A stretch of DNA of 37,941 bases from a virus. Where the stretch lies: IMG/VR virus record IMGVR_UViG_3300047299_000005, positions 1 to 37,941 of that record. The stretch is one strand, 5' to 3'. Positions 1,805-29,865 of the stretch are shown piece after piece; the first letter of the stretch is position 1; every line of letters starts with the position of its first letter. Position numbers and translations under genes: made by a program. The notes beneath the pieces are model-generated. The model ran no database searches and was not told the DNA's origin. It saw only the letters and a list, made by a program, of their open reading frames with translations.

Positions 1805-3832
1805 ATGGCACTAACACAAGACGATAACATGGGTGAGAACCACTTGGATAAGTTTGAAGAACCCACTGAGAATGAGAAGGAACTCACCTCATGGGTTAAT
1901 CAACACATTACCCGCTGGCGTGATCACCGTGACGCTAACTACATGGACTTGTGGTTGGAATACGAACGTATCTTCCGTGGTATCTGGGCTGCTGAGGATA
2001 AGGGGCGTGAGAGTGAGCGTAGTCGTATTATCTCCCCAGCTACTCAGCAAGCCATTGAGACTCGTCACGCTGAGATCATGGAAGCTATCTTTGGTCAAGG
2101 TGAATTCTTTGACATCACAGATGATGTAAAGGATGTAGATGGTAATCCTTTAGATGTTGAACAGATCAAGGTTCAACTGCATGAGGACTTCAAGCGAGAC
2201 AAGATTAAAAAAGCTATTGACCAGATTGAGTTGATGGCTGAGATTTATGGTACAGGTATTGGTGAGATCATTGTCAAGACTGAGAAGGAGTACATCCCAG
2301 CTACTCAAGCGATCCCCGGTATTGCTAATGCAGCCGCTATTGGAGTTGAAGAGAAAGATAGAGTTGCGGTCAAGATTAAACCAGTTAACCCTAAGAACTT
2401 CCTTATTGATCCTAATGCTGATTCCATTGACGATGCTTTGGGCGTTGCTATCGAGAAGTATGTATCCGTTCACAAGATTGTGGAAGGCATTGAGCGAGGG
2501 ATTTATAAGAAAGTCGACATCACCCTTACAGCGGAGGATGAAGACTTGGAAGTAACCCAAGATTTGAAGACCTATCAAGATGATAAGGTACGTCTGGTTA
2601 CATACTACGGTTTAGTTCCTCGTGAGTACTTGTCTGAAGATGAAGAGCAAGAGTATGCTGAGCTGTTTCCTGAGGGTTCAGTAGGTGATGAGTACTGCAA
2701 CCTTGTAGAGGCTATCGTTGTAATTGCCAACGGTGATCTACTGTTGAAGGCTGAGGCTAATCCTTACATGATGAAGGATCGTCCAGTTGTAGCTTACGAA
2801 GATGATACAGTTCCCGGTCGCTTTTGGGGTCGAGGTACAGCTGAGAAGGCCTACAATATGCAGAAAGCTATTGATGGTCAGCTCCGTGCTCATATGGACT
2901 CCTTGGCCTTGACTACAGCTCCTATGATTGCAATGGATGCTACAAGGCTACCACGTGGTGCTAAGTTTGAGATTAAGCCCGGTAAGGCTATCTTAACTAA
3001 CGGAGCACCTTCTGAGATCTTGTATCCCTTCAAGTTCGGTCAGACTGATGGTAATGCAGCTGCAGCAGCGCAGAACTTTGAGCGTATGCTCTTGCAAGCT
3101 ACAGGCACAGTGGACAGCGCAGGTATGCCCTCTAACGTACCTCGTGATGCAGGTGCTGGTGGTATGTCAATGGCTATGGCAGGTATCATCAAGAAGTACA
3201 AACGTACCTTGAGTAACTTCCAAGAAGACTTCATGATCCCGTTCATTAACAAAGCTGCCTTCCGTTATATGCAGTTTGACAGTGAGCGTTATCCATCAGT
3301 TGACATGACATTCGTACCAACAGCTACTTTGGGTATCTTGGCACGTGAGTTTGAGCAACAACAGATGATTGGACTCTTGCAGACACTTGGCCCTAATACG
3401 CCAGTACTGCCATTGATCCTTAAAGGTATCTTGCAGAACAGTTCCTTGTCTAACCGTGGTGCTTTGATGCAAGCTTTGGATCAGATGTCTCAACCTAATC
3501 CTGAAGCTCAACAGGCTCAACAGGCTCAGCAGATGGCTCAGATGCAACTTGCACAGGCTCAGGTGGCAGATCTCCAGTCTAAGGCTCAAAAGCAACAAGC
3601 TGAAGCTCAAAAGACCATGATTGAGGCTCAGATGATCCCTGAAGAGCACCGTGTTAAGGTCATTCAAGCTGCTGCAACGAACATTGATCAGAGCAGTGAT
3701 TTCGATAAACGCTTGAAACTGGCTGACATGATGCTAAAAGAGAAGCAAGTTAACCTGAAAGCTGCTGACATCGCCAGCAACGAAAGGATTGCAAGCCTTC
3801 AGATGATGACTAAGAAGAATAAGAACGCATAA
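1805..3832 (+). CDS. Portal (head-tail connector) protein
   Basis: A 675-residue protein of the podovirus portal type, forming the dodecameric ring through which DNA enters and leaves the capsid. It follows TerL by 16 nt, as portals normally do. It begins with an acidic helical segment and has a long alpha/beta body. Residues about 558-612 form an extremely Gln/Ala-rich helical stretch with repeated EAQQAQQAQQ-like units, comparable with the C-terminal barrel or coiled coil of large portals. AAGGG lies before the ATG. The last 23 nt overlap the convergent HNH-like gene on the other strand, so the portal C-terminus marks the insertion border of that element. Confidence 0.9.
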   Translation: MALTQDDNMGENHLDKFEEPTENEKELTSWVNQHITRWRDHRDANYMDLWLEYERIFRGIWAAEDKGRESERSRIISPATQQAIETRHAEIMEAIFGQGEFFDITDDVKDVDGNPLDVEQIKVQLHEDFKRDKIKKAIDQIELMAEIYGTGIGEIIVKTEKEYIPATQAIPGIANAAAIGVEEKDRVAVKIKPVNPKNFLIDPNADSIDDALGVAIEKYVSVHKIVEGIERGIYKKVDITLTAEDEDLEVTQDLKTYQDDKVRLVTYYGLVPREYLSEDEEQEYAELFPEGSVGDEYCNLVEAIVVIANGDLLLKAEANPYMMKDRPVVAYEDDTVPGRFWGRGTAEKAYNMQKAIDGQLRAHMDSLALTTAPMIAMDATRLPRGAKFEIKPGKAILTNGAPSEILYPFKFGQTDGNAAAAAQNFERMLLQATGTVDSAGMPSNVPRDAGAGGMSMAMAGIIKKYKRTLSNFQEDFMIPFINKAAFRYMQFDSERYPSVDMTFVPTATLGILAREFEQQQMIGLLQTLGPNTPVLPLILKGILQNSSLSNRGALMQALDQMSQPNPEAQQAQQAQQMAQMQLAQAQVADLQSKAQKQQAEAQKTMIEAQMIPEEHRVKVIQAAATNIDQSSDFDKRLKLADMMLKEKQVNLKAADIASNERIASLQMMTKKNKNA

Positions 3833-4373
3833 AGTCAGCAATTAGTTGATGTTCTTGGGAAGTTCCATCGTTTTTAATGCGATTAGCTCTCCAAGACATC
3901 ACTATGACATTACCTTTAACGTAACCTTTAGTAGGATCTACACGATCAAAGGATACTGAGTTCTCTAAACGTCCTTTACCCTCTGTAAAGTAGTCAAGTT
4001 CAAGGCCTAATACAGGGCAGTGTGATGGAAACTCTAGATCTCCAAACTCAATAGTCCATTCCCACCCATATTTGTTACCTTTCTTGTTACGAAACTTCTC
4101 TTTCATAGATTGAAAGATTAAAGACTTAGTAAACTCAGGATCGTTCCATTTAGAACCGTTCTTAGCAAACATTTTGTCTGTATATTCTTTAGTTTTGATG
4201 GCTTGACGTATCTTTAAAGCATCAATACCGTTCTTTTGAGCTATTTGTTTAATACGTTGCTTGGTTAATTTACCTTCTAAACGCTTGGAGATCTCAGTAT
4301 ATGAGACTCCTTCACGAAGCCACTGCAACATGTTAGCACGTTCTTGAGCTGTAGTTTTATACTTAAAAGTCAT
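3810..4373 (-). CDS. HNH-like homing endonuclease with N-terminal helix-turn-helix
   Basis: A 187-residue protein encoded against the direction of the late operon. Residues about 11-50 resemble a helix-turn-helix (GVSYTEISKRLEG then LTKQRIKQIAQKNG). Residues 119-169 carry CPVLGLELDY, then SFDRVDPTKGYVKGNV, then MSWRANRIKN. This D-R-x-D, KGY, GNV, AN pattern occurs in phage HNH-like endonucleases. It has its own RBS (AAGGA) and its own TTGACA/TACAAT promoter (4404-4433). Orientation, private promoter and position between portal and the next structural gene all fit a free-standing homing endonuclease. The exact nuclease family is not certain from sequence alone. Confidence 0.75.
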   Translation of the reverse strand: MTFKYKTTAQERANMLQWLREGVSYTEISKRLEGKLTKQRIKQIAQKNGIDALKIRQAIKTKEYTDKMFAKNGSKWNDPEFTKSLIFQSMKEKFRNKKGNKYGWEWTIEFGDLEFPSHCPVLGLELDYFTEGKGRLENSVSFDRVDPTKGYVKGNVIVMSWRANRIKNDGTSQEHQLIADFMRSYSS

Positions 4374-27920: not shown

Positions 27921-28206
27921 GTGACTCCTTCGTGAGCTGATACTGATGGAGGAAAGCTCCAAAGGTATCGACAAACTCCTCATCGTGGTTTAGTTTACCC
28001 ATTGTGAACAAGATAGCGTGAACTAACTCATGATAGAAGGTCTGCTCAGTAGTTTGTTTATTCATGTCCATTCGTAGGTGGATAGTCTGCCTTTCAGGAT
28101 CACACTTACCCATCTCTTCCATGTGACATAAGTAGTTTACGTGCCACTTAGATCCTGCGAGGATGAAGGTGGTTGCCACATCTGGTTTGTCTCTCTTCTT
28201 AACCAC
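27910..28206 (-). CDS. Small HExxH metallopeptidase-like protein
   Basis: 98 residues from GTG 28206 (start uncertain). A TTG at 28263 would add 19 residues overlapping the exonuclease more deeply. The sequence has FYHELVHAILF with HELVH (59-63) and an acidic third-ligand candidate, Glu77, in DEEFVD, a gluzincin-like layout. Small phage proteins of this type occur widely. A real proteolytic role has not been shown to my knowledge. It overlaps the exonuclease 3' end by 70 nt and endonuclease I by 11 nt. Confidence 0.7.
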   Translation of the reverse strand: MVKKRDKPDVATTFILAGSKWHVNYLCHMEEMGKCDPERQTIHLRMDMNKQTTEQTFYHELVHAILFTMGKLNHDEEFVDTFGAFLHQYQLTKESHES

Positions 28207-28853
28207 AGTAGTTGCCCGTTCTCCAGTACCCTTTGAGAGTCTCCAGAATAAGCTTTGAGGCAAGCATCATATAGTTCCCTTTCAGTTGTACAGTCTTTCA
28301 AGATCTTATCAGCCTTTACAGGGCCAATACCTCTGATTCCTTCGATGTTATCAACTCTATCCCCAGTTAAGATCTGCTTGTAGAAACTGTACAAGCCTTC
28401 AAACTCGGTAACATAGTACTCTTCATCCTTTACAGGATTGTAGTGCCATCCGGGTAACTGGTCTAGATCTTTATCAACGTGAACTATCCAGTAGTTACCT
28501 TGAGCAGATGCTATAGCTACAGCATCATCAGCCTCTTCACCGTCTGACATCTCAGCTCCTAGCTTTAGTAGGTGCTTACGTAGTGCATCATAGTGCTTAG
28601 GCTTAGGAGCATCTTTACGATTCCCCTTGTAAGGAACGGTGGTAGCTACCTCGAATCTAAAGTTAGTTTTACCTGTAATCCAAGCTCTGTAGTCATCACA
28701 CTTCAAGCGCATATAGATGATGTCGGTAAACCATTCAGTGAGTCGATTTAGTGCCCATCTTTCCTCTTCGTCCTCATTAGAGAAGCCGATCTTATAAACT
28801 AGCTAAAGGAAATCAGCATCTACAATAGCTTCTAGCGGTCGATCTAATTTCAT
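28137..28853 (-). CDS. 5'-3' exonuclease (T7 gp6/FEN family), interrupted by an in-frame amber codon
   Basis: The gene starts at ATG 28853 with GGAGG upstream, overlapping the HNH stop by ATGA. Sixteen codons later, directly after the first metal-binding motif VDADFL, lies TAG (28803-28805), and the same frame then runs on to 28137. Downstream parts are intact FEN motifs: GEEADDAVAIA, HVDKDLDQLPG, GDRVDNIEGIRGIGPVKA, and the C-terminal GQLLWLRRETNQMW. T7 gp6 has a similar D-x-D-W-L then V-F arrangement, suggesting about six extra nucleotides here that include the stop. The first in-frame ATG after the stop (28712) would omit the DxD motif, so the product would be inactive unless the stop is read through or is an error. 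Confidence 0.8.
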
Positions 28854-29347
28854 TTCTTACCTCCTTCAAAGTGCCTAATACGATGGCAGTTTGCACAGAG
28901 AAGAACACACTTTGATAGTTCTTTCTCTACGAATTCAAAATCTTTTCTACGCAGAATGTTTCCAAGATTGAATTCTTTTTCACTGGGATCTAAATGATGA
29001 AAATCATAAACAGAAGTAGGAAAGACACCATTACAATCAACACATTTACCACCTAAATAGTCAATGGCTTTTTGTTTCTTTTCAAGGCCATGTTTCGCTA
29101 CTTTATTGTTTCTTTTATCCACCCATTCAGGACTTGTTTTGGCTTTGTTGTAGTATGCTCTTGATCTTTCATTCGCACAACTCTTACAAGAACCGCCTTT
29201 AGATGAAAATAACTCAATAGATAATATGTTAGTACATTGAGAGCAATATTTAAATCCTTGTGGAACTTCTTTTCCGTCCACTAGGAACACATACTCAAGT
29301 ATCTTACCTTTACTATCTCTTTTAGTTACTTTTCGTTCTGTTTTCAT
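28850..29347 (-). CDS. HNH homing endonuclease
   Basis: 165 residues from ATG 29347 with GGAGG 5 nt upstream. It has an N-terminal zinc ribbon (CSQC, CKSC then ANERSRAYYNK) and a C-terminal HNH core: CVDC, DFHHLDP, then CVLLCANCHRIRHF. It is much more AT-rich than its neighbours and has its own promoter at 29379-29407. It sits between the ssDNA-binding and exonuclease genes of the replication cluster. It overlaps the exonuclease start by ATGA, and the exonuclease carries an amber codon 45 nt downstream, which may mark damage at the homing site. Confidence 0.85.
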   Translation of the reverse strand: MKTERKVTKRDSKGKILEYVFLVDGKEVPQGFKYCSQCTNILSIELFSSKGGSCKSCANERSRAYYNKAKTSPEWVDKRNNKVAKHGLEKKQKAIDYLGGKCVDCNGVFPTSVYDFHHLDPSEKEFNLGNILRRKDFEFVEKELSKCVLLCANCHRIRHFEGGKK

Positions 29348-29378: not shown

Positions 29379-29407
29379 ATTCTACACTATTGGAGATAAT
29401 TTGTCAA
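29379..29407 (-). promoter_or_regulatory. Sigma70-type promoter of the HNH gene
   Basis: On the minus strand TTGACA (29407-29402), 17-nt spacer, TAGAAT (29384-29379): one mismatch from the sigma70 consensus. It lies in the short AT-rich gap between the ssDNA-binding gene and the HNH gene, so the endonuclease can be expressed apart from the phage operon and will also lift transcription of exonuclease and downstream genes. Confidence 0.8.
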
Positions 29408-29424
29408 GTTTTATTTAACTTATT

Positions 29425-29865
29425 TTAGAGGATGTCATCTAACTGTTCTTCAGTTATACGATCATCGCTACCTTCAGGGTTATACACCTTCAGCTCAGTG
29501 ATCACCACCTTCTTAATAGATGGTGCAGCACCGAACTTAGCTGACATCTTGTGACGGTATGAAGACACCAAAGCATAACACTTAGTACCGTTACCGATCT
29601 TGCTGATGTCTACAGGTTGACCATCTTCAGTGACTGGCTCGAATACAAACTTAGACTTACCAACAATGAACTTACCCATTGTGTCTTTGTCTTTGATCTT
29701 GATACCTAACTCTTCAAGCTTAGCTGCTGCAGCATCGCTCAACTGTCCCAATGTGCACTCATACTTATCGTTAGCTTCGTTGAACTTAGTGTTGTACTCT
29801 TTCATCCAGTTAGACCAGTACAACTCACCAGCAACTTTAACGGGTTTCATGCTATCAATACTCAT
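29425..29865 (-). CDS. Single-stranded DNA-binding protein (T7 gp2.5-like)
   Basis: 146 residues with an OB-fold-like body and an acidic C-terminal tail (SDDRITEEQLDDIL). It carries KYECTLGQLSDAAAAKLEELGIKIK and FIVGKSKFVFEPV, then GNGTKCYALVSSY, a pattern common to podovirus ssDNA-binding proteins. The acidic tail is where gp2.5-type proteins dock with the polymerase and primase-helicase encoded upstream. It binds replication intermediates in the cytoplasm. The ribosome site AAAGGAAA precedes the ATG by 6 nt. Confidence 0.88.
   Translation of the reverse strand: MSIDSMKPVKVAGELYWSNWMKEYNTKFNEANDKYECTLGQLSDAAAAKLEELGIKIKDKDTMGKFIVGKSKFVFEPVTEDGQPVDISKIGNGTKCYALVSSYRHKMSAKFGAAPSIKKVVITELKVYNPEGSDDRITEEQLDDIL

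Follow-up and report, generated by a model that had tools for sequence, protein, structure and literature searches.

In-frame stop hopping has hitherto been described from synthetic constructs in E. coli (Weiss et al. 1987, as presented in the review PMC5009743). According to that 2016 review by Atkins and colleagues, the product of a stop hop is two amino acids shorter than the product of readthrough, and no natural in-frame stop hop was known (PMC5009743). The closest natural system to the locus considered here is the bypass of T4 gene 60, which lies beside the HNH gene mobA (PMC5009743, PMC3014915, PMC2988022). Here, we analyzed an interrupted exonuclease gene in a 37,941-nt stretch of viral DNA (IMG/VR record IMGVR_UViG_3300047299_000005, hereafter “the window”) and compared its site of interruption across viral contigs and cultured phages. 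No earlier report of this site was found in the open-access literature.

The exonuclease frame runs on the minus strand from an ATG at 28853 to a TAA at 28137 and, as the original prediction had correctly described, is open but for one TAG at codon 17 (28805–28803). This stop stands directly 3′ of MKLDRPLEAIVDADFL, a leader (28806–28853, minus strand) that carries the D-x-D metal-binding motif and varies synonymously across lineages while its protein sequence is conserved. The last codon of the leader, CTT (28806–28808), and the first codon after the stop, CTA (28800–28802), both encode Leu and are the proposed take-off and landing codons of a hop; the remainder of the protein is encoded at 28137–28799. 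The gene is a FEN-type 5′-3′ exonuclease: its native relative L001 matches phrog_107 (E 2.4e-60), the best solved-structure matches to the predicted model of that relative are T5 D15 and E. coli ExoIX, i.e., a FEN fold, and the acidic motifs D-x-D and EADD are present.

Immediately upstream on the same strand lies a gene for a 165-aa HNH endonuclease (28850–29347), whose TGA overlaps the exonuclease ATG, which matches PHROG HNH families (E 4e-27) and which has relatives at the same place in other genomes. It is preceded by a promoter-like TTGACA-N17-TAGAAT (29379–29407, minus strand), a consensus match at 11 of 12 positions. The GGAGG ribosome-binding site of the leader, anticipated from the sequence at the outset, is present at 28864–28860 within the end of the HNH gene. 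Native exonucleases instead begin at ATGACATCCTC, overlapping their upstream gene, and HNH-less relatives use this same start; in the window, the former start (ATGACATCCTCTAAAATAAGTTAA, 29415–29438, minus strand) is orphaned at 29438, and the cassette supplies its own GGAGG and ATG. Elsewhere in the window, a lone minus-strand ORF (3810–4373), described as HNH-like in the original prediction, overlaps the end of the gene at 1805–3832.

The suspicion that the frame carries about six extra nucleotides was borne out by comparison with 80 close IMG/VR relatives, 77 of which read GAY TTY YTN GTN TAY and continue without them; it is exactly these 6 nt that HNH-less relatives lack. The other three (L006, L007, and L010) combine the HNH gene and leader of the window with CTT TAG CTA on different exonuclease alleles, which excludes an assembly error. 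A scan of viral contigs for D-x-D-x-CTT-TAG-CTN-x-Y matched 26 contigs, in all 26 cases within exonucleases, and these belong to very different families, with protein identities as low as ~0.3. This census is a lower bound, since the pattern required Y at the second base of the codon after landing and thereby missed the type found in phage LUZ24 (see below). When any Leu codon was allowed on both sides, all 23 true hits read CTT TAG CTN; when the codon after the stop was left free, every true hit again had CTN there, the single extra (L159) being a chance hit. Searching for TGA in place of TAG returned one true case, contig L154, with CTG TGA CTA and an HNH gene upstream, and four spurious hits (L155–L158); TAA in the viral contigs gave spurious hits and no true case. 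The first pattern applied to 257 Gb of bacterial and archaeal genome contigs gave five hits, none in an exonuclease and all by chance. Overall, the 27 site-bearing contigs, most of them partial, derive from 25 metagenomes, and TAG stands at the same place in 26 contigs and in seven cultured isolates. Recurrence on this scale excludes the sequencing error that had been listed among the possible explanations: the amber codon is real, and reflects neither such an error nor gene decay. Close Zobellviridae isolates (TC6, GP100, CRP-5, CRP-6, Asterion, and others) carry a native exonuclease, and probing GenBank phages with short DNA from other cassette blocks found nothing.

The cultured carriers came from a distant DNA search, which matched LUZ24-like Pseudomonas phages at an unannotated stretch. 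In LUZ24, the HNH gene gp40 is followed by ATG ATC GCA GGA ATT GAT GGC GAC GTA CTT TAG CTT CGC TAC, and the site occurs in 11 records representing seven distinct phages (LUZ24, DL54, TL, phiPA01_EW, FJK, Pa223, and Ab22). GenBank starts LUZ24 gp41 downstream (NC_010325.1, at 22200), which leaves the annotated exonuclease without its D-x-D motif, and this first metal-binding motif is likewise missing from the annotated enzyme of the six other carriers, as gene callers place the start behind the recoded stop. Among the matches listed, the next records align 6 nt shorter (244 query vs. 238 subject bases), and in the three that were opened (PaP4, SaPL, and Clew-1) the HNH gene is absent and the frame uninterrupted. 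Codons 2–16, a tract that spans the stop, show 12 synonymous changes between LUZ24 and PaP4 and none that alters an amino acid; beyond them differences become rare, a pattern that has the look of a transferred tract of a translated gene. The LUZ24 product expected from a hop would be 294 aa long, the same as in PaP4, and 98% identical to it.

Next, we evaluated selection on the interrupted genes. For unsaturated pairs, dN/dS ranged from 0.05 to 0.14, and the frame downstream of the stop was open in every case, which indicates strong purifying selection on the interrupted exonuclease; its amino acid sequence is maintained both before and after the stop. Comparisons between lineages are saturated at synonymous sites, and yet CTTTAGCT is unchanged except in L154, while within a clade its constancy partly reflects recent spread of the cassette. 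In native genes, by contrast, 55 of the 65 Leu codons at this place are TTA or TTG, mostly TTA. Assuming 12 independent lineages, the codon usage gives P values of 1e-7 for the take-off and 3e-4 for the landing codon, which, given shared ancestry, we take as signs of constraint only.

The 6-nt insertion is nearly always accompanied by an HNH gene just upstream, drawn from either of two unrelated families: the LUZ24 enzyme is an HNH_3 protein (PF13392) with no similarity to that of the window. Interrupted alleles are scattered among native ones in the exonuclease tree, with eight changes of state, at least four of them forced by well-supported branches. Within the L149 clade, only two columns vary in the ~180 nt that lead up to the third base of the landing codon, at which point variation sets in abruptly, so that a sharp border of the co-transferred cassette is apparent in the alignment at the insertion, inside the landing codon. 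HNH genes thus scattered among alleles of the same site, together with such a border, are what we read as homing with a cut at or near the insertion, in which the HNH enzyme would be the putative nuclease for the cassette-less allele. The original prediction had offered a lesion linked to the neighboring HNH gene; the link holds, but a lesion does not fit an exonuclease that stays under purifying selection. The site can also persist without an intact endonuclease, since in Pa223 (Pseudomonas virus Pa223, L187) the middle of the HNH gene is deleted and the exonuclease stop kept, and L139 has the stop and no HNH gene upstream.

Other variants of the arrangement were also observed. Between GLEADDAMCIYQ and TIICSRDKD, the interrupted exonuclease of L139 (IMGVR_UViG_3300021440_000021) contains a long in-frame stretch that resembles a homing endonuclease of the HNH + AP2 type and may be an intein-like element or a homing insertion kept in frame. 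Related HNH genes occur at the same place, with neither stop nor insertion, in L099–L101, L103, L104, and L113; they have the N-terminal half in common with the HNH genes of the stop-carrying L132 and L148 but not the catalytic half, which points to a different target or a different route to immunity. A tRNA-Leu(UAA) gene lies ~1 kb from the site in L135, L138, L140, L142, L143, L145–L147, and L149; it may function as a phage tRNA or mark an attachment site, and is unable to read CUN by normal pairing.

Given these patterns, a conserved recoding site of some kind is almost certainly present, and the ways in which the stop might be passed or tolerated differ widely in how well they fit. It is very improbable that the exonuclease is inactivated or truncated, with only a C-terminal product made by re-initiation. 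The GenBank start of LUZ24 gp41 would agree with such a restart, but no conserved restart codon was found, the D-x-D leader is kept at the protein level with low dN/dS, and the records searched contained no second intact copy of the exonuclease. Removal of the stop by frameshifting, transcript slippage, or a tiny intron is more remote still: although CTTTAG looks like a shifty stop, the frame would have to change by a net 0 or 6 nt, the +1 and −1 frames of the window close after one and four codons, respectively, and a search for introns and known RNA elements returned one sub-threshold chance match and no intron family at threshold. We assign a similarly negligible probability to amber suppression or TAG recoding by phage or host. 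TAG is indeed the rarest stop in the window; however, it does end other genes there, as originally noted (3 of 46 ORFs), many of these exonucleases themselves terminate with TAG, the variant in L154 uses TGA, and no suppressor tRNA was found in the window or in the cassette contigs, the latter being partial. In addition, the seven cultured carriers infect P. aeruginosa, whose genetic code is the standard one.

With frameshifting, restart, and a suppressor tRNA each disfavored, what is left is readthrough or a hop. In programmed readthrough, a near-cognate tRNA would read UAG or UGA, and two extra residues (X-Leu) would follow D-x-D-x-L. An in-frame stop within conserved coding sequence, with an open frame and selection on both sides, is what readthrough would look like, and a C invariably follows the stop, a context thought to be leaky through weakened termination, which would suit readthrough as well as a hop. 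Still, readthrough seems to us unlikely, since it leaves unexplained the CUN codons on both flanks, where natives mostly have TTA, and breaks an otherwise constant motif. Specifically, the D-x-D-x-x-x-Y spacing is invariant in 70 native exonucleases, whose search pattern assumed it, and in nine GenBank phages, for which it was not assumed; T7 gp6, T5 D15, and Taq polymerase share the same spacing. Two added residues would break this fixed spacing and a hop would keep it, so that the motif argues against a residue being inserted at the stop. AlphaFold2 confidence (pLDDT) across residues 11–20 was 93 for the native and 72 for the read-through form, in which the first helix begins at residue 17; this drop at the insert is weak evidence for the hop.

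Thus, of the programmed read-through put forward originally, programmed recoding stands, while the read-through form gives way to a reading in which CUN flanks every stop, including the TGA, and native spacing is restored only by skipping. Based on these flanking codons, the motif spacing, and the AlphaFold2 confidence, we favor a hop over readthrough and consider it likely that this is a natural in-frame stop hop, i.e., a translational bypass of 6 nt that HNH homing cassettes bring with them. In every true copy, the take-off codon is CTT or CTG and the landing codon CTN, all of them Leu, and one tRNA would presumably read both. Once the stop occupies the A site, the peptidyl-tRNA-Leu would release CUU and re-pair with the next CUN, from which translation would resume; nine nucleotides would then yield one Leu, and the predicted product would be of native length, with no residues encoded by the gap. 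Several features count against such a hop. The leader is short (10–16 codons), which leaves too little room for a nascent-peptide stimulator like that of gene 60; RNA folding near the site gave no structure signal (mean z −0.7 to 0.2), and hence no candidate stem-loop stimulator; and CUU to CUA or CUG is a non-identical codon pair that needs wobble. Synthetic stop hops are, moreover, inefficient.

With somewhat more reserve, we also think it probable that this natural programmed stop hop serves as the immunity mark of HNH homing cassettes, has spread among phages in that role, accompanied at one and the same position of the exonuclease gene by HNH genes of at least two unrelated families, and was overlooked in the cultured model phage LUZ24. 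The insertion and its accompanying synonymous changes would render the cassette's own target uncleavable, and the hop would spare the exonuclease. If true, in-frame stop hopping would occur in nature, in dozens of variants that can be compared with one another, and a selfish endonuclease would be able to write its immunity mark into the reading frame of a gene for DNA metabolism whose protein is retained. The absence of the catalytic N-terminus from the annotation of some phage exonucleases would also be explained, and a hop would have to be considered for some sites that look like readthrough. LUZ24-like phages make the proposed hop directly testable.

Relative to the synthetic stop hop of E. 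coli constructs, the exonuclease site is natural, conserved, and tied to a mobile element. It resembles T4 gene 60 in having a stop right behind the take-off codon, a landing codon for the same amino acid, and an HNH endonuclease gene 5′ of the interrupted gene, with an insertion thought to protect from the endonuclease. Unlike gene 60, its gap is 6 nt and in frame rather than 50, no stem-loop signal was found, the leader of 10–16 codons is too short for a peptide signal of the gene 60 type, and the site is found in many phages and with two HNH families, its hop being predicted from sequence; stem-loop and nascent-peptide stimulators, for their part, characterize gene 60 and not the synthetic stop hops. 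With stop-codon readthrough it shares an in-frame stop within selected coding sequence, but it differs in that CUN is kept on both sides and a product of native length requires that two codons be skipped. Finally, like the byp elements of yeast mitochondria, it would be an insertion neutralized in translation, although those elements are mitochondrial, differ in sequence and length, and occur many times per genome (PMC5009743).
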